Shown: piece by piece, positions 44,471 to 56,540 of the stretch
How the letters are laid out: each line of letters opens with the position of its first letter
Numbering within the stretch: position 1 is the stretch's first letter
Assembly: GCF_907164905.1 (NCBI RefSeq)
Contig: NZ_CAJRAF010000002.1
Span: forward strand, 2,170,001-2,234,000
DNA length: 64,000 nucleotides
Source of the DNA: Dyadobacter sp. CECT 9275
GTDB taxonomy: Bacteria > Bacteroidota > Bacteroidia > Cytophagales > Spirosomataceae
Direction of reading: 5' to 3'
Program-made: the position numbers and the translations under genes
The notes under the pieces: model-generated
The model's input: only the letters and a program-made list of their open reading frames with translations
Databases searched by the model: none
Told to the model about the DNA's origin: nothing

Positions 44471-45667
44471 ATGAAATATTTAAAAAAAAGAAGGGAACTG
44501 AGGTATATACCACTGTTGATACTGTTTTCATTGGCAATTGTTCAGTCCTGTAAAAAAGATCCCAAAACCATGACCAATGAGCAAATTGCTCAAGAATTGG
44601 GTTCTGAAAGCAAATACAAACATTTGCTTGATTATGTGAAAAGTATCGGAATAAATGAAGCGCGGTTTGAGAAAAAAGAAGGCAGCGCACCCGTTTTTGA
44701 ATTACTTCAGGAAGTAGCCTACGGCCGCAAGTCCAACATACGCTTCGTTGAAAAAACACTGAATCCCGATTCCATCCGGATACGGGAAGCAGCAGAAGAA
44801 TTGATAAAAGGCCAGAATGTCCCCAAGGTAATGGAAAAACTGGAACCTTCGTACCCTGCCTACATCACGCTAAAAGCGCATTATGCCCGCTTGATAAGAG
44901 AAAGCAAGAAAGACAGTGCCCGGTACGTTGCGAATGCTTTAAATGCTTACCGCTGGATGCAAAGACAGGTACAAGGAGCTCCACGATTTGTGATGGTCAA
45001 TATTCAGGGAGCTTACTTAAGAGGTATGGATTCTCTTGGAAACGTTGCCATCAGCATGCGCACCGTGGTGGGAAAAAGAGATACCCCCACGCCCACAATG
45101 GATACCTACGCCACGAGTATCGTGACACATCCCTATTGGAACGTTCCCAAAAGCATAGCGATGAGGGAAATTCTGCCCAAAGCAAAAAGCAATCCTGATT
45201 ATTTGACAAATAATAAAATAGAGGTAATTGATAAAAAGGGGCAGGCCGTTGACCCTTCGGAAATAGACTGGGAGGCAGCCGCACCCGAGAATTTTCCCTA
45301 CCGGTTCAGACAGGAAACGGGGGAAGACAACTCTCTGGGGTTGCTGAAAGTGGAAATCAAAAATCCGCTTGCCATTTACCTGCATGACACCAACGCTCGA
45401 TATCTCTTCGGCAAAGACCAACGATGGAGAAGCCATGGCTGCGTACGCGTGCAGCATCCCACCGAACTGGCTAATTTCATGGCAGGGGACCAGTTACTTG
45501 AAAATGATTTTCTGACAGAACAGGATACCACCGCAACACCTCCCAAATGGCATAAACTGCAAAGGCGTATCCCCGTGTTTTTGTTTTACCTGGGTGCCGA
45601 TTGTAACGAAAAAGGCCAGCTTCTTTATTTCGAAGATGTATACAAACGCGGCGCTCCCAAGGTATGA
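44471..45667 (+). CDS. L,D-transpeptidase lipoprotein (YkuD/YcbB type)
   Basis: A 398-residue lipoprotein (lipobox SLAIVQSC, Cys27). A helical region resembling the scaffold of YcbB-type enzymes runs from about 60 to 165, then the YkuD fold: RFVMVNIQGAYLRGMDSLG, VVGKRDTPTPTM and a His in TSIVTHPYWNVPKSI, closing with LHDTNARYLFGKDQRWRSHG then CVRVQHP; the catalytic Cys is residue 324 in SHGCVRV. It would form 3-3 cross-links in peptidoglycan. Its 3' end overlaps the convergent gene by 43 bases. Confidence 0.92.
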   Translation: MKYLKKRRELRYIPLLILFSLAIVQSCKKDPKTMTNEQIAQELGSESKYKHLLDYVKSIGINEARFEKKEGSAPVFELLQEVAYGRKSNIRFVEKTLNPDSIRIREAAEELIKGQNVPKVMEKLEPSYPAYITLKAHYARLIRESKKDSARYVANALNAYRWMQRQVQGAPRFVMVNIQGAYLRGMDSLGNVAISMRTVVGKRDTPTPTMDTYATSIVTHPYWNVPKSIAMREILPKAKSNPDYLTNNKIEVIDKKGQAVDPSEIDWEAAAPENFPYRFRQETGEDNSLGLLKVEIKNPLAIYLHDTNARYLFGKDQRWRSHGCVRVQHPTELANFMAGDQLLENDFLTEQDTTATPPKWHKLQRRIPVFLFYLGADCNEKGQLLYFEDVYKRGAPKV

Positions 45668-46404
45668 TCTTCCGTCAGCCCGGAAAGGAGGGTCGAAGAC
45701 TTTACGTAATTTTTATCGAGCGAATAAATAAACAATCCAGCTCCGTTGTACAACATCTCGATCAGCTTTTTGCTATCAGGAACAGATACAGCCGGACAAC
45801 CCAGGCTCCGCCCCAGCCTGCCAGTAGCTCTAATAAAAGCTTCGCTGACATAGTCGGCACCATGCATGACAATAGCCCGTTCAAAGGCGTTATCGTTGAT
45901 CCCCTTTTCCAGGCCTTCCAGCCTTAACGACAGGCCATGCTTTCCCTGGTAAGTACCCAGGGTTCTGTAAAAGCCAAGGCTGGACTGGTAAGAGGCGTTG
46001 TTATTGGAAAATTTTTCAGCAAACTCATTCCCTGAATTCCGGCCATGGGCCACGTAGGTATGGTAAAGCAGCTTTTTACGCATCAGGTCAATGACATACA
46101 ATCTCTTTTTGCAGGACGACTGGCTGAAATCCGCAATGGCCAGTACCGGATTACCCAATTTCATTTTCTGAAACCCAAACCAGGCATACTGGAATGCTTT
46201 CTGTGACAACCCTTGTTTTTCAAGATGTAAGGAATCGTATAATATTTCCCAATCCTGCTTTCCAGGAACCGAATCAGCGGGAGTAGATTTTGCTGAAAAA
46301 TTTTGAGGAGCCGAAAACCCTGAAAAGGAATGAACTGTTTTGAAACCGAATGAAACACTGAGGGCAAGAAACACCGCCGCATACACCACCTGAGCCTTTG
46401 TCAT
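45625..46404 (-). CDS. Murein L,D-transpeptidase catalytic domain protein (YkuD_2 type)
   Basis: A 259-residue exported protein with a hydrophobic N-terminal signal (AQVVYAAVFLALSVSFGF). The catalytic region includes LYVIDLMRKKLLYHTYVAHG, the strand MHGADYVSEAF and the active-site stretch GRSLGCPAVSV. It belongs to the second YkuD-like family (PF13645), which is separate from the classical SHGCVR type encoded by the convergent neighbour. Its role is probably peptidoglycan remodelling. The last 14 codons overlap the end of the neighbouring gene. Confidence 0.88.
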   Translation of the reverse strand: MTKAQVVYAAVFLALSVSFGFKTVHSFSGFSAPQNFSAKSTPADSVPGKQDWEILYDSLHLEKQGLSQKAFQYAWFGFQKMKLGNPVLAIADFSQSSCKKRLYVIDLMRKKLLYHTYVAHGRNSGNEFAEKFSNNNASYQSSLGFYRTLGTYQGKHGLSLRLEGLEKGINDNAFERAIVMHGADYVSEAFIRATGRLGRSLGCPAVSVPDSKKLIEMLYNGAGLFIYSLDKNYVKSSTLLSGLTEDHTLGAPRLYTSSK

Positions 46405-47444: not shown

Positions 47445-47753
47445 CAGAGGAGTGTAAGTGCTAGTTTACCACTAATTACGCACAAACAAAGATTGCTGCC
47501 GCAGTGGTCCAGACTTTTTTGGGGATATACTTATTTATCGGCAAGTACCTTTTAGCTGGCGGAAACAAAGAGTCATGGCTATTTTCAAATACCGTCCAGG
47601 AATAAACCGAATAACAGCAGGAACAAATCATTATATTATTTTTACATAAAGTAAATCCTGACCATGGCCGGGATGACAAGTAATTTACATAAATTGACCT
47701 CGGTCTTACGATTTTATATTTACCATCGCCTTTCAGGCCATACGAATTCGATT

Positions 47754-48332
47754 ATGCAGGACGACATTCTTTTCCAGATCAGCAATAAGCTTAAGGAGGT
47801 CAGAAAAAACAAGGGGGTAACTCTCCAGGAGATAGCCGATGAGGCAGGAGTAACCAAAAGCCTGGTTTCTCAGATCGAAAACAGCCGAACCATACCCTCG
47901 CTGCCCGTCATGCTCGGCCTGATTCAGGCCCTGGATATTGACCTGAACTTCTTTTTCAAAGATATCATTTCCGGCACCTCACGTGAGAATGTTCTGATCC
48001 GCAAAAAGGAAAGTTACCAGCCTTTTACCAAAGAAAATGCCAAAGGATTCTTCTATCAACGGATATTCAGCAAGCAGTTTAAAGATAACCATATTGATGT
48101 GGTACTTCTCCGTCTCGAAAAGGGTGCGCGCAGGCCAATGGTTCGCACAAATGCCTATGAGTTCAAATACGTACTTCAGGGTTCAGTTGAATACACCGTT
48201 GGAAAAAACAAGTATGTGCTCAATCAGGGCGACTCCATGTTTTTTGACGCCAACGAGCTGCATAACCCAAAATGTATCGACGGAGACGAAGCCCTGCTGC
48301 TGGTCATTTATTTTTTTAATGAAACGGCCTGA
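47754..48332 (+). CDS. XRE-family regulator with C-terminal cupin
   Basis: A 192-residue regulator from ATG 47754. The N-terminal HTH is VTLQEIADEAGVTKSLVSQI followed by ENSRTIPSLPVML. The C-terminal cupin_2 domain has FKYVLQGSVEYTVGKNKYVL and GDSMFFDANELHNPKCIDGD, the His being a possible metal or ligand site. This type of one-component regulator usually controls an adjacent catabolic operon. It precedes, in the same direction, the phosphonate genes after a 272-base AT-rich gap, so it is the likely local regulator. Confidence 0.9.
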   Translation: MQDDILFQISNKLKEVRKNKGVTLQEIADEAGVTKSLVSQIENSRTIPSLPVMLGLIQALDIDLNFFFKDIISGTSRENVLIRKKESYQPFTKENAKGFFYQRIFSKQFKDNHIDVVLLRLEKGARRPMVRTNAYEFKYVLQGSVEYTVGKNKYVLNQGDSMFFDANELHNPKCIDGDEALLLVIYFFNETA

Positions 48333-48604
48333 CCGAGAATTTCCAGCACTCCGGGCATGAATGACCGGCAGGTTAATTTTTCATTAAAAGTTAAATATTA
48401 ATTAACATTAGCTTCATCTCTTTATAGCCAACAATCTGTTAATTTGACATTAGAAAATATAATAAACTTGATTTTTTTAAGTATTACTAAACTATTTCTT
48501 GATTTTTAAGTCTCTTTCACCTAATTTTAAGATGCTCTTCGGGAGATTTCGACAAGGGACAGAATATAAAAGTGTAGTAATACTAAATATTAAGGTTAAC
48601 AGGA

Positions 48605-49306
48605 ATGGCAATAGAACTAGTAGTATTCGATATGGCCGGCACAACGGTCAGAGACAAAAATTATGTCGGCATTGCTTTTCAGCAAGCCATGGAGTCGTTT
48701 GGATACTCCATCGGAATTGAGCAGATAAATCCGATCATGGGTTATGAAAAACCTCTCGCAATAAAAATGATGCTGGAAGAGCGGGAACCAGACAGGGACA
48801 AAATCACCGACAGCCTTGTTGGAGACATCCACGCAGAATTTGTGAGCAGTATGATCCGCTTTTATGAAACTACAGCAGAAATTGGTCCTTTGCCCCACGT
48901 GGAGGAAACTTTTGAAACGCTGAAACAAGAAGGCATCAAAATTGCCCTGAATACTGGTTTTTCAAGAGACATAGCAGATGTAATTGTGAAACGGCTTGCC
49001 TGGAAGGACAAAATTGACCTGCTGGTGGCCAGTGATGAAGTACCAAAGGGCCGCCCATACCCCTTCATGATAGAGAAGATCATGAAGGAACTAAGCATAA
49101 CAACTGCCGACAAAGTTGCCAAAGTAGGAGATACCGAAGTGGATATCAATGAAGGCATTAACGCAGGATGCGCCTATGTCATAGGCGTAACTACGGGAGC
49201 TTTTACCAGAGCTGAATTACTCCCCTACAAACCAACCCACGTGGTGGATGACATTTCGGAAATACTGGATATCATTAAAGTTAAATCTCATAAAGCGATT
49301 ATATGA
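48605..49306 (+). CDS. Phosphonatase-like HAD hydrolase (PhnX-like, TIGR03351 type)
   Basis: A 233-residue HAD enzyme. The nucleophile motif is VVFDMAGTTV with Asp9 and Ala11, as in PhnX (DxAGT). The cap region has NPIMGYEKPLAIKMML, where Lys49 falls near the Schiff-base Lys of PhnX (there in MGxxK), and KVGDTEVDINEG is motif III. The family would split the C-P bond of phosphonoacetaldehyde-like compounds. Its last bases overlap the next gene's ATG (ATGA), so both are translated together. The best-supported marker of the phosphonate cluster. Confidence 0.9.
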   Translation: MAIELVVFDMAGTTVRDKNYVGIAFQQAMESFGYSIGIEQINPIMGYEKPLAIKMMLEEREPDRDKITDSLVGDIHAEFVSSMIRFYETTAEIGPLPHVEETFETLKQEGIKIALNTGFSRDIADVIVKRLAWKDKIDLLVASDEVPKGRPYPFMIEKIMKELSITTADKVAKVGDTEVDINEGINAGCAYVIGVTTGAFTRAELLPYKPTHVVDDISEILDIIKVKSHKAII

Positions 49307-50433
49307 GCAAGTCGGCGATAGTAATCGGGGCTGGTATAGTGGGGCTTGCTACCGCAAGAGCTTTATCTGTAAGAGGATATCAGGTTACCGTAATAGAACG
49401 TTCCTCTCAGGCGGTAGGAGCATCCATCCGGAATTTCGGGATGCAATGGCCCATCGGCCAGCCCGAAGGCAAACTGTACCAGCGTGCGCTCAATGCACAG
49501 AGAATATGGAAAGAAGTACTGACAGGTGCCAATTGCTGGTTTCACAAGGCGGGAAGTTTACACATGGCCTACCAGCAGGACGAGCTTGAAGTCATGGAAC
49601 AGTTTGTAGCCGGCAGCAGCAGCGAGCGACCGGTGAGAATTTTATCACCCCAGGAAACACTTACCAAGTCGCCTGCAGTGAATCCGAAGGGCTTGCTAGG
49701 CTCGCTGTTTTCGGAGGATGAGATGATTGTGGACCCCCGTGAAGCGATCGCCGGGATACCTGGATACCTCGCGGAGGTATTCGGCGTCAACTTTATCTGG
49801 GATACTGCAGCAACGGAGATAACCTACCCGCAGGTTCTGGCGGGAAACAAAAGCTGGACAGCAGACGAAATATATGTCTGCAGCGGTGCGGATTTTGAAA
49901 CCCTTTACCCCGAACAGTTCAGAAATGCGCCCTTAGTCAAATGTAAATTGCAAATGCTGCGCCTGGAAGCTCAGCCAGACAACTGGAAAATAGGGCCGTC
50001 CTTGTGTGGTGGCCTCTCCCTGATCCATTACGAGGGATTTAAGGTGGCAGCATCACTTCCGGCCCTTAAAGAGCGCTATAAAACGGAATATCCAGAATAC
50101 CTCAAATGGGGCATTCATGTGATGGCTTCGCAAAATGGCCTGGGAGAAATTACCGTCGGCGATTCGCATGAATACGCGCTGACGTTCGATCCTTTCGACA
50201 GGGAGTTTATCAACACGCTGATACTGAACTACCTGGGGACATTTGCACAATTCAAATCGCCCAAAGTATTTCAAACCTGGCATGGTATCTATGCTAAAAT
50301 GACAAATGGCGCAACCGAAATTGTACTAAAACCGGAAGACGGCGTGACCATCATTAACGGGCTGGGAGGTGCAGGTATGACGTTGTCATTCGGATTATGC
50401 GAAGAAGTTGTGGCAGGCACCTATGCACCATAG
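49303..50433 (+). CDS. FAD-dependent amine/amino-phosphonate oxidoreductase (TIGR03364 type)
   Basis: A 376-residue flavoenzyme of the DAAO/GlyOX-like fold. The dinucleotide motif is VIGAGIVGLATARALSVRGY, and ERSSQAVGASIRNFGMQWPI is characteristic of the clade that is syntenic with the HAD phosphonatase-like family. The C-terminal GLGGAGMTLSFGLCEEVV closes the FAD site. Members are thought to oxidatively deaminate aminophosphonates such as 2-aminoethylphosphonate or its derivatives, giving phosphonoacetaldehyde. It is coupled by overlap to the HAD gene. Confidence 0.9.
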   Translation: MSKSAIVIGAGIVGLATARALSVRGYQVTVIERSSQAVGASIRNFGMQWPIGQPEGKLYQRALNAQRIWKEVLTGANCWFHKAGSLHMAYQQDELEVMEQFVAGSSSERPVRILSPQETLTKSPAVNPKGLLGSLFSEDEMIVDPREAIAGIPGYLAEVFGVNFIWDTAATEITYPQVLAGNKSWTADEIYVCSGADFETLYPEQFRNAPLVKCKLQMLRLEAQPDNWKIGPSLCGGLSLIHYEGFKVAASLPALKERYKTEYPEYLKWGIHVMASQNGLGEITVGDSHEYALTFDPFDREFINTLILNYLGTFAQFKSPKVFQTWHGIYAKMTNGATEIVLKPEDGVTIINGLGGAGMTLSFGLCEEVVAGTYAP

Positions 50434-50602
50434 CCGAAAAATGGCGCAGACTGGTAAATACATTTCATGAACGTATATTAACTACCGGCAAACCAGGCTC
50501 GGTCTGTGCTCGCCGGCATGAATAAAACAAGGAATTCCAATGGACGGAAAGTGAAAGACTGGATCCGATAATTATTTTGATGTTTAACAAAAAACGCAGA
50601 TA

Positions 50603-51955
50603 ATGGAAGTTTCTAAAGAACAAGGAGACAACAATGCGGGAGAACTCCGGGCGGCTTACATTGATGGGCTGGACGAGCAGACCCGCAACTGGATCAACGA
50701 AGATGCCAGGTATTTCTTTCACCAGGCGCTGTCTACACCCGTAATGAACGTACTCTCCCGTACCGAAGGCGCCTATATTGTGGACCTGCACGGGAATCGC
50801 TATCTTGATTTGCACGGCAATGGAGTACATAACGCAGGATTTTCTAACCCGGAGATCATCGCGGCGGTGATAAGCCAGTTACAGGACAACCTTGCCTTTA
50901 CGCCCAGACGGTATACCAACATTCCTGCAATTAAACTCGCTAAAAAGCTGACGGAAATTACGCCGGAAGGTTTGAACCGTGTGCTGTTTTGCCCGGGAGG
51001 TTCCGAAGCTATTGAAATGGCGGTATCGCTGGCCAAACAAATAACCGGGCGCTGGAAAACCATATCTTACTGGGATTCTTACCATGGCAACGGCTTTCAG
51101 TCGTCGACCCTGGGTGGAGAAGAGCATTTCACAACCGGACAAGGACCCATGGTACCAGGCGGCTTCCATATTGAATTTCCAAATTATTACAGGAACCCCT
51201 GGGGCTGGACCGACCGTGATGCCATTGATGCTGAGTACCTCCGGCAGTTAAGGCTGATCATCAAGCGAAATCCGGATATAGCTGCATTGGTAGCCGAGCC
51301 GATATCCGCCACGCCGGTGGTACCTTCCACCACATACTGGCAACAGGTCAGAGAAATATGCGACGCGAACGGAATCTTCCTGATTTTTGACGAAATCATT
51401 GAGGGCTTCGGAAGGACAGGTAAGTGGTTTGCCTCCGAGCATTATGTCACGCCCGATGTACTGGTCCTTGGCAAAACGCTGGGTGGCGGCCTGATGCCCT
51501 TCGCAGGAATTGTAACCAAAGAGGAATACAACGTTCTCCAGCACAGATCTATCGGGCACTTTACGCATGAAAAAAATCCGCTGTGCTCCGCAGCCGGGCT
51601 TGCAACTATATCCTACATAGAGAAACACAACCTGGTGGAAAATTCAGCCACGCTGGGTGACTACCTGATCAGCCAGCTCAATGAATTAAAACAACAGTTC
51701 CCCGTTATCGGCAATGTTGCAGGTAAGGGGTTGCACATCGGAGTTGACCTGGTGACCGACCCGGCCACCAAAGAACCGGCGGTTCAGTATGCCGAAACCA
51801 TTATGTATGATTGCTTCAAACAAGGCATAGCATTTAAGGTAATTGAAGGCAATATCCTGACCATGAGGCCATCTCTGATCATTGGCAAAGACCAGTGCGA
51901 CCAGATAGTGGATGCGCTGAAAGTTGCATTCATAAGAAATAAGCTGCATTCATAA
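50603..51955 (+). CDS. Class III PLP enzyme, PbfA paralogue
   Basis: A 450-residue fold-type I enzyme. The PLP Lys is residue 291 in LVLGKTLGGGLMPFAG; FDEIIEGFGRTG holds the PLP-binding Asp. Its N-terminal YFFHQALSTPVMNVLSRTEG and FTPRRYTNIPAIKLAKKL match the (R)-1-hydroxy-2-aminoethylphosphonate ammonia-lyase family. It is clearly related to the enzyme at 53764 but differs in active-site-near residues (CPGGSEAIEMAV versus APGGTSSISMAL), so a related substrate or a transaminase reaction is possible. It lies in the phosphonate cluster, 169 bases after the FAD gene. Confidence 0.88.
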   Translation: MEVSKEQGDNNAGELRAAYIDGLDEQTRNWINEDARYFFHQALSTPVMNVLSRTEGAYIVDLHGNRYLDLHGNGVHNAGFSNPEIIAAVISQLQDNLAFTPRRYTNIPAIKLAKKLTEITPEGLNRVLFCPGGSEAIEMAVSLAKQITGRWKTISYWDSYHGNGFQSSTLGGEEHFTTGQGPMVPGGFHIEFPNYYRNPWGWTDRDAIDAEYLRQLRLIIKRNPDIAALVAEPISATPVVPSTTYWQQVREICDANGIFLIFDEIIEGFGRTGKWFASEHYVTPDVLVLGKTLGGGLMPFAGIVTKEEYNVLQHRSIGHFTHEKNPLCSAAGLATISYIEKHNLVENSATLGDYLISQLNELKQQFPVIGNVAGKGLHIGVDLVTDPATKEPAVQYAETIMYDCFKQGIAFKVIEGNILTMRPSLIIGKDQCDQIVDALKVAFIRNKLHS

Positions 51956-51973
51956 AAAAATCCTTAACCCAAT

Positions 51974-53647
51974 ATGAAACCAATAAAATTAAGACCTTTT
52001 GCAGTGCTTGCTCTGGCGGGTATCTCCATTTTTGCATGTAAAAAAAGTGATCAGAGATTTCCCGAAGGAATTGAACATGTGGTTGTAATCGGCGTAGACG
52101 GGCTGAGCCCGGACGGTATAAAAAAAGCCAGCACTCCGGTACTTGACAGTATGGTGGCCAACGGGGTTGTAAAATGGAATGTGCGCACGGTTCTTACTTC
52201 CTCCAGCAGCCAGAACTGGGCTTCCATGATCATGGGAGCGGGTCCTGAGCAACACGGCATTATCAACAACGACTGGGAAATGGATGACCACACCTTACCG
52301 CCAGTAGTGCAGGAGCCCGACGGTAGATTTCCAACGATTTTCAGCCTGATACGAAAAAACAAACCTGATGCGGAAATTGGAACTTCCTACCATTGGGGTG
52401 GATTCGGTAGGTTATTTCAGAAAAATGCGGTTAATCATGATAAGCATTTTTCAACCGAAGATTCAACGGCCAGTGATTTTATCTCCTACATCAAAACAAA
52501 AAAACCAACCTTTGCTTTTATGCACCTGGACCATGTGGACCATGCAGGACATCACGACGGCCACGGAACCCCGGCATATTACAAATCGGTTTCCAAGGCC
52601 GACTCACTGATCGGGAAGGTACTGGAAGGAATAAAAGAAGCCGGAATAGAAGAGAGTACACTGGTGATTATTACGGCAGATCATGGCGGGATCGGCTACG
52701 GTCACGGTGGAGCTACTCCTCAGGAGGCCGAAATAGCAATGATACTTTATGGAAAAGATGTAAAAAAGGGATATGAACTGAAACAACAGGTATATACCTA
52801 TGACCTGGCAGCCACCATTGCCTTTGCATTTAACCTCACCCCTCCGTATGCCTGGATTGGAAGGGCCATCAAACCTGCTTTTGAAGGATTTGATGAACCC
52901 GAAAATCTTTACCTTGGCCAGGAAACCATTGCACAGCCTGTTATCTATCCCGACAAAAAATTATATGCGCAGGCCGGGGGCCTATATATCAACGAAAAAC
53001 CTTCCGTAAAAATGTCGACACCTGTCTCGGGAGGACAGATCCGTTATACCACCGATGGCTCCGAACCCGACAGTTCCTCAGCTATTTACAGCAATCCTTT
53101 CTCGCTTGACCGGACAACGGTTATCAAGGCCAGGAGTTTTGATGGTTCAGGAAATGAGAGCCTGGTAACTACGGCCTATTTCAGGGTTTTAAAAGAAACC
53201 AATGGCCACGGACTTACTACTACCTTTTACGAAGGAAATGAATTAAAAGAGATTCCCGATTATGGCAAGCTAAAAAAAGGGCAGTCGTGGGTAAGTCAGG
53301 AGGTGGGTACCAATACGGAACAGATCAGCAGCCTTTTTAAAAACGGAAATTCCAGTTTTGCGTTAAAATTTGAAGGTTTTATTCAGATCGACAAGGAAGG
53401 AGAGTACCTGTTTTCCACCAGTTCGGATGACGGCAGCATGCTTTATATAGACGGGCAGAAAGTTGTGGACAACAACGGAAATCACGGCGTGATGGAAGAA
53501 ACCGGAACGATAAAACTGACTGCTGGGAAACATGCGATCAGGGTTGAGTTTTACAACAACGGCGGCGGTTTCTGGCTGGACGCGTTTTACAAAGGCCCCG
53601 GTATTGCGAAGCAGCTGATCCCGGCCGACAAACTCTTTCTAAAATAA
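51974..53647 (+). CDS. Surface lipoprotein phosphodiesterase with PA14-like C-terminus
   Basis: A 557-residue lipoprotein (lipobox GISIFAC). Residues 30-320 are an alkaline-phosphatase-superfamily type I phosphodiesterase: metal/nucleophile region VIGVDGLSPDG with the SSQNWASM segment, and metal ligands in LDHVDHAGHHDGHG and ITADHGGIGYGHGG. A beta-sandwich like the chitobiase C-terminal domain follows (GGQIRYTTDGSEPDSSSAIY), then a PA14-like sugar-binding domain to the end (SSDDGSMLYIDGQKVVDNNG). Only 18 bases after the PLP gene. It may release phosphonate head groups from glycans or lipids outside the cell; that role is inferred from context. Confidence 0.88.
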   Translation: MKPIKLRPFAVLALAGISIFACKKSDQRFPEGIEHVVVIGVDGLSPDGIKKASTPVLDSMVANGVVKWNVRTVLTSSSSQNWASMIMGAGPEQHGIINNDWEMDDHTLPPVVQEPDGRFPTIFSLIRKNKPDAEIGTSYHWGGFGRLFQKNAVNHDKHFSTEDSTASDFISYIKTKKPTFAFMHLDHVDHAGHHDGHGTPAYYKSVSKADSLIGKVLEGIKEAGIEESTLVIITADHGGIGYGHGGATPQEAEIAMILYGKDVKKGYELKQQVYTYDLAATIAFAFNLTPPYAWIGRAIKPAFEGFDEPENLYLGQETIAQPVIYPDKKLYAQAGGLYINEKPSVKMSTPVSGGQIRYTTDGSEPDSSSAIYSNPFSLDRTTVIKARSFDGSGNESLVTTAYFRVLKETNGHGLTTTFYEGNELKEIPDYGKLKKGQSWVSQEVGTNTEQISSLFKNGNSSFALKFEGFIQIDKEGEYLFSTSSDDGSMLYIDGQKVVDNNGNHGVMEETGTIKLTAGKHAIRVEFYNNGGGFWLDAFYKGPGIAKQLIPADKLFLK

Positions 53648-53763
53648 AAGCACGGTACCTTCTTGTATTTTCAGTAACCGACGACAATTTAAGGTGGATT
53701 GAAATTGGCGTTACACCACCGATTAGCTATTTTACAGTACAACAATTCTTTCAAGAAAAAACA

Positions 53764-55122
53764 ATGAGTGAGACACACAACCGGACAGAGGGAGATATTA
53801 ATTTATCGTCGGCCAGGAACCAGTGGTATGCTGTGATGAACGACCCTGAAACGCTTGCCTATCTGGAGGAAGACGCCGAATATTTTTTACACCAATCCCT
53901 TTCCACACCCTGCCTCGATGTGCTCGCCTCCTGCGAAGGCATTTATCTGACTGATGTCCAAGGGAAAAGATACATGGATTTCCATGGCAACAATGTCCAT
54001 CAATTGGGCTATGGACATCCTTATATCATCGAAAAAGTGAAGGAGCAAATGGATATCCTTCCTTTTTCACCGAGAAGATATACCAACTTACCGGCTATCA
54101 AACTGGCAAAAAAATTATCAGATTTGCTCCCTGGCGACCTTAAAAGAGTACTTTTCGCTCCGGGAGGTACCTCCTCTATCAGTATGGCCCTTAAGCTGGC
54201 CAGGATCGTGACCGGAAAACATAAAATCGTTTCCTTATGGGATTCATTTCACGGCGCTTCCCTGGATGCCATTTCTGCCGGAGGTGAGCTGGACTTCCGA
54301 AAAGATATAGGACCCTTAATGCCGGGAGTAGAGCGTATACCACCGCCTATGACCTACCGCGGTCCTTTTACAGCCTCAGGAAACGGAGATCTGGCCTATG
54401 CGGATTACCTTGAATATGTGATTGAAAAAGAAGGTGATATAGGCGCGTTTGTGATCGAAACCATTCGGAACACCGACGTGCAGATACCTTCACAAGCCTA
54501 TTGGACGCGTGTCAGAGAGATCTGTAACCAACATAAAGTGCTGCTGATACTGGATGAAATCCCGATAGCCTTTGGCAGAACAGGAAAGATGTTCGCATTT
54601 GAGCATTATGGTATTGAACCGGATATTATTTGTCTGGGCAAAGGACTGGGCGGAGGTGTCATGCCCATGGCGGCAATAGTGGCCCGCGAAAGTTATAATG
54701 TGACAGGGAGTGTATCGCTGGGGCATTTCACACACGAAAAAAGTCCGCTGGGCAGTGTAGCCGCGCTGGCTATGCTGGAATATATTGAAGAGCAGGATAT
54801 TCTTGCCAAAGTGGTTGACGACGGAAAATTCATGCAGCAGGAACTTGAGGGTTTAAAGGCAAGATTTCCGATCATCGGAGACATCCGGGGCCTTGGGTTA
54901 CTCTGGGGAATTGAGCTGGTGAAGGATCCTTTTACCAAGGAAAAGGCCATCAGGGAAGCGGAAATTGTGATGTATGAATGCCTGAAAAACGGCATGAGTT
55001 TTAAAGTATCGCAGGGAAATGTGCTGCAGCTTTCTCCCCCATTGATCATCACGAGGGAAGAATTAAAACAGGCTCTTCAAATTGTTGAGCAAGCACTGAC
55101 AGTCGCCATTGCGGCCCATTAA
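53764..55122 (+). CDS. pbfA: (R)-1-hydroxy-2-aminoethylphosphonate ammonia-lyase-like PLP enzyme
   Basis: A 452-residue class III PLP enzyme. The N-terminal signature FLHQSLSTPCLDVLASCEGI and KRYMDFHGNNVHQLGYGHPY matches the PbfA family as I remember it, as do FSPRRYTNLPAIKLAKKL and LWDSFHGASLDAISAGGE. The PLP Lys is residue 293 in LGKGLGGG; the PLP Asp is in LDEIPIAFGRTG. PbfA enzymes convert (R)-1-hydroxy-2-aminoethylphosphonate to phosphonoacetaldehyde plus ammonia, which the HAD gene product could split. Function is assigned by family resemblance and context. Confidence 0.82.
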   Translation: MSETHNRTEGDINLSSARNQWYAVMNDPETLAYLEEDAEYFLHQSLSTPCLDVLASCEGIYLTDVQGKRYMDFHGNNVHQLGYGHPYIIEKVKEQMDILPFSPRRYTNLPAIKLAKKLSDLLPGDLKRVLFAPGGTSSISMALKLARIVTGKHKIVSLWDSFHGASLDAISAGGELDFRKDIGPLMPGVERIPPPMTYRGPFTASGNGDLAYADYLEYVIEKEGDIGAFVIETIRNTDVQIPSQAYWTRVREICNQHKVLLILDEIPIAFGRTGKMFAFEHYGIEPDIICLGKGLGGGVMPMAAIVARESYNVTGSVSLGHFTHEKSPLGSVAALAMLEYIEEQDILAKVVDDGKFMQQELEGLKARFPIIGDIRGLGLLWGIELVKDPFTKEKAIREAEIVMYECLKNGMSFKVSQGNVLQLSPPLIITREELKQALQIVEQALTVAIAAH

Positions 55123-55200
55123 TTTGTTATCAGGAAGAAGTTTCTGAATGCTCAGCCCATAAGCAGCCCTTCCATTCAACTGCGAAAACAGACTTAAAAT

Positions 55201-56508
55201 ATGATACTGCGTATCCGAGAAGCATTGTCCCGCTCCAATTCACTATTCATTCTATGGGCTGTTGTGGCATCTTTTGGTTCCTATTTTTGTATGTATGCAT
55301 TTCGGAAGCCATTTAGTGCGGGGCTGTATCAGGGCTTGGAAATATGGGGTGTAAGCTACAAGGCCGTTCTGATCATTTCCCAGGTTGCCGGTTACACCAT
55401 TTCCAAATTCACCGGCATAAAGGTTATTTCGGAGCTTAATCCGAAGGACAGGATCAAACTGATCATCGGCCTCATACTGATTGCCGAGGCTGCCCTTTTC
55501 CTTTTTGGTATCGTACCGCATCCTTACAACTTCGTTTTCTTATTTGTGAATGGCCTGCCTTTGGGAATGGTGTACGGCGTGGTGTTCAGCTTTCTTGAGG
55601 GAAGGCGGCTCACCGAGATGATCGCCATGGGACTGAGCATAAGTGTAGTAGTTGCCTCCGGCATTTTAAAAACAACTTATATCGAGCTTCATCTTTTGCT
55701 GCCAGGCATTTCGGAATTCTGGATGCCCTTTTTTATGGGCGCTTTGTTCCTGCCGCTTTTCCTGTTTTTTGTATGGATGCTCGCGCTCATTCCTGCGCCG
55801 AGCCAGGACGATATAGCGCATCGTACCGAACGCCTGCCCATGACCGCACAAGACAAAAGAAATGTAATGTTTCAGTTTGGCTTCCCCATCCTTTGCTTAG
55901 TAGTATGCTATGCGATCCTGGTGGTGATCCGGGATTTCAGGGATAATTTTATGATTGAGATTTGGAATGAGATTGATGCCAACTGGTCGAGCAGCGTGTT
56001 GTCACAGACAGAGATGATATCCGGAATTGTTGTTTTGGTAGTAATCGGGAGTATTGCTTTTGTCAAAAGCAATCTCATCGGATTCAGGCTCACCAACCTG
56101 ATCCTGCTGGGCGGGATGCTACTAAGCGGACTGGCGACCTACTTATTTCAGCAGGAAATCATTACCGGATTTTACTGGATGCTGCTCATCGGCGTGGGCT
56201 TTTTCCTTTCCTACACGGCCATCCAAACAGTGATATTTGAACGGATGATCGCACTTTTCCGCATGAAAGCTAACGCAGGCTTTTTTGTTTATATCTGCGA
56301 GAGTATAGGGTACATGGGAAGTGCAGGCCTTTTACTTTACAAGGAATTTTTCATGAAAGATCTGAGCTGGTCTAACGTGCTGATGCAGTTCTCATATCTT
56401 CAGGCCATAACAGGCCTTGTACTGCTGGTTCTTGCCAATTTATACCTGGAGTTCTATCACAATTCCGCTGCCCGGCAGAAAAAGAAATGGCCGCTCCCCA
56501 GTTTATAA
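55201..56508 (+). CDS. DUF5690 major-facilitator transporter, candidate phosphonate importer
   Basis: A 435-residue polytopic membrane protein with about 11-12 helices. The N-terminus WAVVASFGSYFCMYAFRKPF has the YxxRKPF feature seen in organophosphate/phosphate antiporters (GlpT/UhpT type); later helices include AVLIISQVAGYTISKFTGIK and GLPLGMVYGVVFSFLEGRR. It closes the phosphonate cluster, 78 bases after pbfA, and is followed by a terminator. Family and transporter role are supported; the substrate is inferred from context. Confidence 0.85.
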   Translation: MILRIREALSRSNSLFILWAVVASFGSYFCMYAFRKPFSAGLYQGLEIWGVSYKAVLIISQVAGYTISKFTGIKVISELNPKDRIKLIIGLILIAEAALFLFGIVPHPYNFVFLFVNGLPLGMVYGVVFSFLEGRRLTEMIAMGLSISVVVASGILKTTYIELHLLLPGISEFWMPFFMGALFLPLFLFFVWMLALIPAPSQDDIAHRTERLPMTAQDKRNVMFQFGFPILCLVVCYAILVVIRDFRDNFMIEIWNEIDANWSSSVLSQTEMISGIVVLVVIGSIAFVKSNLIGFRLTNLILLGGMLLSGLATYLFQQEIITGFYWMLLIGVGFFLSYTAIQTVIFERMIALFRMKANAGFFVYICESIGYMGSAGLLLYKEFFMKDLSWSNVLMQFSYLQAITGLVLLVLANLYLEFYHNSAARQKKKWPLPSL

Positions 56509-56540
56509 AAAGAGGAGAAGCAAGCCGCCTCTCCTCTTTA
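56509..56540 (+). terminator. Terminator after the phosphonate cluster
   Basis: AAAGAGGAGA (56509-56518) pairs with TCTCCTCTTT (56530-56539), 11-nt loop, right after the DUF5690 gene stop. It may also serve the convergent small gene. Confidence 0.8.

Follow-up and report, generated by a model that had tools for sequence, protein, structure and literature searches.

The window analysed here, a stretch of 64,000 nucleotides from Dyadobacter sp. CECT 9275, carries a run of seven open reading frames on the + strand, at the positions at which a sequence-only reading of this DNA had placed them. The first codes for an XRE-cupin regulator of 192 residues (47754..48332), with matches to HTH_3 and Cupin_2; the longest open reading frame starts at 47664, and the 192-residue form is the commonest in relatives (9/12). 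It is followed by a phosphonatase-like HAD hydrolase with a DxAGT motif (48605..49306), a FAD-dependent oxidoreductase of family TIGR03364 (49303..50433), a PbfA-like class III PLP enzyme, hereafter PLP-1 (50603..51955), a phosphodiesterase of the alkaline phosphatase superfamily (51974..53647), a second PLP enzyme, PLP-2 (53764..55122), and a DUF5690 membrane protein (55201..56508). The HAD and FAD frames share four bases, as expected from the ATGA overlap that had been claimed for them, and the family assignments of the regulator, the FAD enzyme and the DUF5690 protein are borne out, the latter two above the cut-offs of their families. Upstream of the HAD gene, about 200 bp from its start and likewise on the + strand, lies an operator-like palindrome, GTTAA-N7-TTAAC (48390..48406), which is conserved across the genus; a degenerate second copy is found 86 bp further downstream (48476..48492, + strand). 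The terminator said to close the operon is matched by a + strand hairpin with a short T-run (56509..56539) and a favourable folding energy (-17.1 kcal/mol, z -4.8), but this hairpin is not among the 13 terminators (11.0 expected) returned by a simple scan. A scan for sigma-70 promoters was uninformative (15 found, 18.4 expected).

The order HAD–FAD–phosphodiesterase–PbfA–DUF5690 is kept in all 13 mapped relatives that have PbfA, and the regulator is recognised in 12 of them, with 83-92% identity. Conserved gene order in relatives, the point on which the proposal had been staked beforehand, is thus what we find, and the array is not a chance one. Among 17 sampled genomes of the same genus, the presence of the four families tested is all-or-none (all four in 14 genomes, none in three). 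Across 150 genomes of the family the FAD enzyme occurs in 123, DUF5690 in 136 and PbfA in 25, so that most genomes have HAD/FAD without PbfA. Phosphodiesterase, PbfA and DUF5690 also stand together in Arenibacter, Chitinophaga and further families; their combination, which had looked new, is not unique to this locus. The open reading frames were called mechanically, and in 23 named Dyadobacter loci the HAD gene went uncalled in three, the phosphodiesterase in two and PbfA in one, while the regulator was not seen in seven, four of which begin downstream of it; the named loci overlap with the mapped relatives, and the two sets of counts are not additive.

The HAD protein is closest to the PhnX-like family TIGR03351, at 191.9 bits (cut-off 218.9), a cut-off that is exceeded in only 9 of the 150 family genomes; against PhnX itself (TIGR01422) it scores 128.4 bits, also below the cut-off (220). 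In 77 homologues (72 distinct), chosen regardless of motif, D9, A11-G12-T13 and K49 are kept without exception, and K49 aligns with PhnX Lys53, the cap lysine that forms the Schiff base. On this sequence evidence the protein is a predicted phosphonoacetaldehyde hydrolase. The FAD enzyme (423.9 bits against a TIGR03364 cut-off of 285.1) is in turn predicted to oxidise 2-aminoethylphosphonate (AEP) or its N-alkyl derivatives to phosphonoacetaldehyde. BLAST places homologues of this enzyme beside PhnY and PhnA in five loci (L118, L167, L179, L182 and L185), and in L118 both neighbours score above their NCBIfam cut-offs. PhnY acts on phosphonoacetaldehyde and PhnA on phosphonoacetate; the product of the FAD enzyme in these loci is, therefore, most simply phosphonoacetaldehyde. 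This arrangement argues against a route in which the FAD enzyme would act on 1-hydroxy-AEP and the HAD protein would cleave hydroxy-phosphonoacetaldehyde into glycolaldehyde and phosphate, PbfA forming a parallel branch. Such a route, presumably the one to which the family name HpnW alludes, draws some support from that name (the FAD family is called HpnW_proposed), from the HAD scores below both cut-offs, from the presence of Ala or Val in 77/77 homologues at the position of PhnX His56 and from the prevalence of HAD/FAD without PbfA; on balance we regard it as unlikely.

Searches for other phosphonate pathways covered the whole genome and 20 relatives from the genus. PhnW is found in none of the 21 genomes at E values up to 1e-20; the PhnW cut-off is passed by the PhnW proteins of L096 and L108 and by no named control genome. 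PhnJ of the C-P lyase is likewise found in none of the 21, the E. coli control being positive. The claim that the organism has no C-P lyase and no phnW is borne out as far as PhnJ and PhnW go, and for phnCDE it narrows to PhnE, which is not found above its cut-off in any of the 21 genomes, although all 21 have weak matches below it.

The last gene of the operon codes for a protein that Pfam labels 'Family of unknown function' and that plasmid records list as 'DUF5690 family protein' (PF18943; 479.9 against a gathering cut-off of 25). Its predicted fold is that of the major facilitator superfamily (MFS), nearest to glucose-6-phosphate transporters; SLC37A4 tops both fold lists, with other MFS carriers within 2 Z behind, and there are invariant arginines in both MFS halves. 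A link in sequence to GlpT-like carriers was sought and not found: the DUF5690 profile has no match to PDB chains up to E 1, and hhalign against the carrier of L118 gives a probability of 0.7 (percent) and an E value of 0.077, with no kinship at the sequence level. The organophosphate:phosphate antiporters (GlpT, SLC37A4) belong to another Pfam family; any kinship to them is confined to the predicted fold, and an MFS fold in common is no evidence of function. It is the genomic context that points to aminophosphonates. In a sample of 247 genomes of the phylum, 18 have the FAD enzyme, 23 have DUF5690 and 17 have both (Fisher p 2e-20, a guide only, because the genomes are related). Phosphonate genes adjoin DUF5690 in 18 of these 23 loci, the window included (in L108 DUF5690 was missed by ORF calling and is placed by the search of the phylum sample), and in 75 of 80 named loci, which were gathered by similarity to the DUF5690 protein of the window; no phosphonate gene is recognised in the stretch of sequence around DUF5690 in L097, L102, L112, L113 and L120 of the phylum sample, or in L175 and four short loci (L157, L165, L187 and L188) of the named set. 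All four plasmid records with DUF5690 also have phosphonate genes next to it: phnX and phnW accompany it in Bacteroides, Parabacteroides and Phocaeicola, TIGR03364 and a phosphonoacetaldehyde hydrolase in Novosphingobium. DUF5690 thus adjoins aminophosphonate genes of several chemistries. Its presence in more of the family genomes than the FAD enzyme also indicates that it is not confined to the aminophosphonate pathway.

DUF5690 might instead export, or carry, a product of the pathway such as phosphate or acetate, AEP entering otherwise. Excess phosphate would have to leave the cell if the compound served as a source of nitrogen or carbon, the protein has no sequence link to known importers, and the records from Bacteroides and Parabacteroides show further carriers close to, but outside, the same-strand run of three genes, namely fucP, an opposite-strand MFS gene and an inorganic phosphate transporter. 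Neither that run nor the operon of the window, however, is seen to contain any inner-membrane carrier gene other than DUF5690, and organophosphate carriers head its fold lists. Moreover, in L118, the sole genome of the phylum sample that has the FAD enzyme and lacks DUF5690, its place is taken by a GlpT/PgtP-like MFS carrier (below the GlpT and PgtP family cut-offs), which adjoins the genes for the FAD enzyme, PhnY, PhnA, PbfA and a phosphodiesterase. We consider a role in the export or carriage of a product improbable. A hydrolytic aminophosphonate pathway with its own carrier, as first read from the sequence, thus gains support from conserved synteny, the role of DUF5690 as that carrier being a prediction.

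The phosphodiesterase matches PF01663 (107.7 bits) and has CHB_HEX and PA14 domains in addition. D42, D189, H193, D236, H237 and H244 are kept in 21/21 sequences, and position 78 is Ser, replaced by Thr in L168 and L175; by analogy with NPP, we take these residues to be the metal ligands and the nucleophile. As judged by these features, the protein is an NPP-type member of the alkaline phosphatase superfamily. By eye, it looks like a lipoprotein. Among its nearest folds are those of ENPP6, which is choline-specific, and of the sphingomyelinase ENPP7, and the assignment of ester-linked aminophosphonates as substrate is a prediction from gene linkage alone.

Both PLP enzymes score above the PbfA cut-off of NF049939 (525), PLP-1 with 636.4 and PLP-2 with 735.3, in keeping with their description as two PbfA-like proteins; they are not, however, equivalent. 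Compared with the PLP enzyme from a phnW-PLP-phnX operon of Vibrio (L226), PLP-2 shows 61% identity and agrees at 25 of the 30 clade-separating positions used (32 were listed, and two without change in the window were omitted), whereas PLP-1 shows 42% identity and agrees at none of the 30. By these measures only PLP-2 is the PbfA orthologue, with a predicted activity as (R)-1-hydroxy-2-aminoethylphosphonate ammonia-lyase, and PLP-1 falls in a separate clade. A recent duplication of PbfA was considered and rejected: the two proteins are 46% identical, and in the tree PLP-1 clusters with proteins resembling PbfA from a different genus (g32), its deeper placement being unsure because of long branches. 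PLP-1 was not seen in the operon among the mapped relatives, and the neighbours of a g32 gene in L089 (AMP-binding, GDSL lipase and ABC genes) give no function from context. The sequence of PLP-1 suggests a paralogue with a probably altered substrate, and the enzyme may act as an additional lyase on some other aminophosphonate. That the locus mainly scavenges phosphate esters, the phosphodiesterase freeing phosphoethanolamine and a PLP phospho-lyase splitting it, would be in line with the membership of ethanolamine-phosphate phospho-lyase (6tor, a structure that was matched) in the class III PLP enzymes and with the ENPP6 and ENPP7 folds, but appears very improbable in view of the PbfA scores of both PLP proteins, of phosphonate-specific partner genes (PhnW, PhnY, PhnA, HD oxygenase-like) and of the phosphonatase cap lysine kept in every HAD homologue.

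The system had been described as a seven-gene island; a SusC/SusD pair located elsewhere in the genome also appears to belong to it. The exact palindrome has two copies in the 7.2 Mb genome (0.003 expected by a first-order model), one upstream of the HAD gene and the other upstream of SusC, 0.89 Mb from the operon. The SusC promoter also has two operator-like copies, spaced 85 bp; a spacing of 85-86 bp recurs in several relatives, and the copy at 48476..48492 is the next-best site in the window after both strands of the first palindrome. In three of the 13 mapped relatives SusC/SusD lies inside the operon (confirmed by Pfam for L083). With up to two mismatches the genome has six sites, as many as for a control pattern; because loose matches are no commoner than the control, we relied on exact copies and conservation only, and a wider regulon drawn from loose matches was dropped. 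From these sequences we infer that the SusC/SusD pair is under common control with the operon and that the XRE-cupin protein is the binder of the palindrome.

Taken together, these observations make it likely that the genes form a complete system for aminophosphonate utilization in which DUF5690 is the inner-membrane carrier. The SusC/SusD pair, encoded outside the window, would take up the ligand across the outer membrane, and the phosphodiesterase, surface-exposed or periplasmic, would release aminophosphonate head groups from ester linkage. DUF5690 would then bring free AEP, N-methyl-AEP or 1-hydroxy-AEP across the inner membrane. In the cytoplasm, the FAD enzyme would oxidise AEP or N-methyl-AEP, and PLP-2 would strip ammonia from (R)-1-hydroxy-AEP, both yielding phosphonoacetaldehyde, the C-P bond of which the HAD protein would split via a Schiff base on K49 to give acetaldehyde and phosphate. 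The XRE-cupin protein would govern both promoters through the palindrome.

The enzymes of the system belong to a known kind; what may be new is the layer of transport and control. The Vibrio phnW-PLP-phnX clusters (L226 and L227) share, besides the PLP enzyme, phosphonoacetaldehyde as the meeting point and C-P cleavage by a phosphonatase-type HAD, but have PhnW where the Dyadobacter system has a FAD oxidase, and are annotated with an AEP ABC transporter and PhnR in place of an MFS-type carrier and SusCD. FAD-dependent oxidases of the PbfC/PbfD type reportedly make phosphonoacetaldehyde from AEP or N-methyl-AEP, and TIGR03364 is presumably among these; such systems likewise pair a TIGR03364 enzyme with a PhnX-like HAD and lack PhnW, and to these Dyadobacter adds PbfA, the phosphodiesterase, DUF5690, SusCD and the XRE-cupin regulator. 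The PhnY-PhnA branch (L096, L118, L154 and others) shares the link to DUF5690 and, at some loci, to SusCD, with a dehydrogenase and phosphonoacetate hydrolase where the Dyadobacter operon has the HAD. Polysaccharide utilization loci (PULs) similarly combine a TonB-dependent pair, a surface or periplasmic hydrolase, an inner carrier and one regulator; in Dyadobacter, however, the enzymes are for aminophosphonates, SusCD is unlinked and no glycosidase catalytic domain is among the Pfam matches of the seven operon proteins.

We think it probable that DUF5690 is a dedicated aminophosphonate carrier in many Bacteroidota and some Alphaproteobacteria, working with SusC/SusD, the phosphodiesterase and the XRE-cupin protein in PUL-like loci that serve at least three chemistries, PLP-1 perhaps adding a further lyase. 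The annotations examined assign no uptake route for AEP-type phosphonates in Bacteroidota, and the recurrence of this gene set across many relatives points to a possible function of DUF5690 and of an outer-membrane SusC/SusD pair. A substrate for DUF5690 would close the transport gap in many genomes, and its reading as a carrier, if true, spans soil Dyadobacter to gut Bacteroides. Involvement of SusCD, if true, extends the idea of the PUL from sugars to organophosphorus compounds.

An ORF map confirms that the seven genes lie on one strand at the positions proposed in the sequence-only reading (window, 2,170,001-2,234,000 of contig 2, forward strand; genome, 7.2 Mb), and profile searches match the domains named there. 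Gene order, whose conservation that reading had set as a check, is retained as HAD, FAD, PDE (phosphodiesterase), PbfA and DUF5690 in 13/13 other PbfA-positive genomes mapped in the genus, the XRE-cupin regulator being recognised at 12 of these 13 loci. At 23 Dyadobacter loci, a set that overlaps with, and is not independent of, the 13 mapped relatives, genes were called for FAD in 23, PbfA in 22, PDE in 21, HAD in 20 and the regulator in 16; DUF5690 is 66-75% identical to that of the closest Dyadobacter species, one second copy showing 54%, which places the genome in Dyadobacter or right next to it. When 150 family genomes were sampled, DUF5690 was present in 136 and TIGR03364 (the FAD enzyme) in 123; the PhnX-like HAD, counted at E ≤1e-38, occurred in 123 and PbfA, counted only over its cut-off, in 25, distributed between the genus of the window (14/17) and a second genus, g32 (11). 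The PbfA-negative genomes of the former (G051, G064 and G135) also lack DUF5690, TIGR03364 and the HAD at the limits used; in this genus the four are present all or none. Elsewhere in the window, two convergent, overlapping ORFs (44471-45667 and 45625-46404) are L,D-transpeptidase-like by eye.

Two PbfA-like PLP enzymes had been proposed, and the assignment stands for the second. PLP-2 (53764-55122) is 61% identical to a Vibrio PLP enzyme (L226), encoded between phnW and phnX, agrees with it at 25/30 clade-separating positions and, in a tree of 35 rows, falls among the PbfA proteins entered from Dyadobacter, Arenibacter and Chitinophaga; it very likely performs the PbfA step. PLP-1 (50603-51955), although over the family cut-off, does not hold as an equivalent PbfA. 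It is 46% identical to PLP-2 and, in the same tree, clusters on long branches with the six g32 proteins entered there. Because it is only 42% identical to the Vibrio enzyme and agrees with it at 0/30 clade-separating positions, its substrate probably differs from that of PbfA. PLP-1 was not seen in the operon of any of the 13 mapped relatives; it occupies the slot between FAD and PDE, where a SusC/SusD pair sits in some relatives, namely in 3/13 mapped genomes (L083, L084 and L087), the pair being called in 4/23 Dyadobacter loci (L149, L152, L153 and L204).

Alignment of Dyadobacter spacers revealed a palindrome, GTTAAATATTAATTAAC (GTTAA-N7-TTAAC), between the regulator and HAD genes at 48390-48406, the sole match in the window at ≤2 mismatches (0.02 expected). 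At this limit it is found in 13/13 mapped relatives and in 19/23 Dyadobacter loci, the remaining four stretches beginning downstream of the site. Genome-wide, six sites occur at ≤2 mismatches, as many as for a control pattern, so the weaker sites are uninformative. Exact copies number two (0.003 expected under a first-order model). The second precedes a SusC/SusD pair, 351 bp ahead of its first start codon, and is followed 85 bp later by another site. These proteins are 85% and 87% identical to the in-operon pair of L083, so SusC/SusD is kept in this genome 0.89 Mb from the operon behind a shared palindrome. A role for the pair in uptake is likely, as is binding of the palindrome by the XRE-cupin protein.

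The best family for the HAD is TIGR03351, but it scores under that cut-off and far under the PhnX cut-off. The protein retains DxAGT and a cap lysine, K49, aligned to PhnX Lys53; both are kept in 77/77 homologues chosen irrespective of motif, and the position of PhnX His56 is Ala or Val in all 77. We assign C-P cleavage to this enzyme with considerable confidence, and it is fairly likely that the FAD enzyme acts on 2-aminoethylphosphonate (AEP) or N-methyl-AEP. The absence of PhnW and PhnJ was borne out, neither being found in the genome and 20 relatives searched, and PhnE gave no match over its cut-off in the same set. A second PhnX-like HAD is encoded in the same genome, with a TIGR03351 score of 216.6 bits, above that of the operon HAD; a PDE-like gene precedes it and an apparent EamA/DMT permease, named by eye, follows. 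These genes (locus L225, 6417-8922; contig 2, ~3.054-3.057 Mb) form another small cluster of this kind.

The predicted PDE model (pLDDT 84, pTM 0.65) is closest to the structures of Xac NPP and ENPP enzymes, and its ligand positions are invariant (21/21); several relatives have forms of 299-330 residues without the PA14 part. PDE and PbfA are linked: among 42 non-Dyadobacter loci of at least 20 kb, PDE accompanies PbfA in 9/9 and occurs without it in six. Action of the PDE on bound aminophosphonates is slightly favoured. Seven Arenibacter loci (L199, L202, L205, L207, L208, L211 and L212) carry DUF5690, SusCD (5/7), then PDE and PbfA, with neither HAD nor FAD seen in the stretch examined; in L207, PDE and PbfA are separated by a 427-residue protein without a Pfam match, and downstream is a purple-acid-phosphatase-like gene.

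DUF5690 is modelled with an MFS fold (pLDDT 91.7). Glucose-6-phosphate transporters (SLC37A4) fill Foldseek rows 1-5 and the first two places of the VIA list, and GlpT appears at Foldseek rank 50, but other MFS carriers score only slightly lower and sequence-level searches gave no match. Three arginines, R35, R244 and R247, are invariant in 36/36 sequences and would fit binding of a doubly charged phosphonate. Across a phylum sample of 247 genomes, TIGR03364 occurs in 18, DUF5690 in 23 and both in 17; in 14 of these 17, no more than 10 kb of a single contig separates the two genes. A phosphonate gene, recognised by BLAST match to reference proteins, is near DUF5690 in 18/23 loci, the window included, and none was recognised in the stretch examined at L097, L102, L112, L113 and L120. 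In a further set of 80 loci, collected by DUF5690 similarity and thus biased to close relatives, 75 have such a gene (65/66 of those of at least 20 kb). The neighbouring chemistries vary: HAD plus FAD, PhnW together with PhnY and PhnA (e.g., Chitinophaga and Flavihumibacter), or PbfA together with PDE (Arenibacter). NCBIfam cut-offs are exceeded in L096 (PhnW and PhnY), L118 (PhnY and PhnA) and L108 (PhnW). Four plasmid records contain DUF5690: DUF5690-phnX-phnW is annotated in Bacteroides finegoldii and Parabacteroides distasonis, the same genes are detected by BLAST in an unannotated Phocaeicola record, and Novosphingobium has DUF5690-TIGR03364-phosphonoacetaldehyde hydrolase with TonB receptors close by. 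The sole FAD-positive phylum genome without DUF5690 (G363, locus L118) has a GlpT/PgtP-like carrier (TIGR00881, 170 bits, under cut-off) with FAD, PhnY, PhnA, PbfA, a PhnW-like gene and PDE (821-residue ORF), a pattern in which one carrier is substituted for another. We consider it probable that DUF5690 imports aminophosphonates.

Other neighbours were observed at these cassettes. L114 (9419-9985) encodes a phosphonate-degradation HD oxygenase-like protein (194.1 bits; cut-off, 214.6), and similar proteins, by BLAST, occur at L096, L103-L105, L109, L123, L125, L126, L128, L129, L132 and L133, possibly a further, oxidative branch. PHP-like proteins, by eye, adjoin HAD/FAD/DUF5690 in L103 (9430-10275) and L109 (9874-10731). 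A protein of 952-958 residues, whose start resembles by eye a carboxypeptidase-regulatory TonB-type domain, adjoins DUF5690 in L098, L099 and L106, loci at which no SusC/SusD was recognised.

PbfA, the FAD oxidase and phosphonatase are known kinds of enzyme; no entry in the libraries and records searched names the carrier function, the tie to an outer-membrane pair, the palindrome or the divergent PLP-1. In the proposed pathway, SusCD would take up the ligand, the PDE would free head groups and DUF5690 would import the freed compound, the FAD enzyme and PbfA would converge on phosphonoacetaldehyde, and the HAD would cleave the C-P bond. With good confidence, we propose that SusCD, PDE, DUF5690, FAD/PbfA and HAD serve together as an aminophosphonate utilization system.
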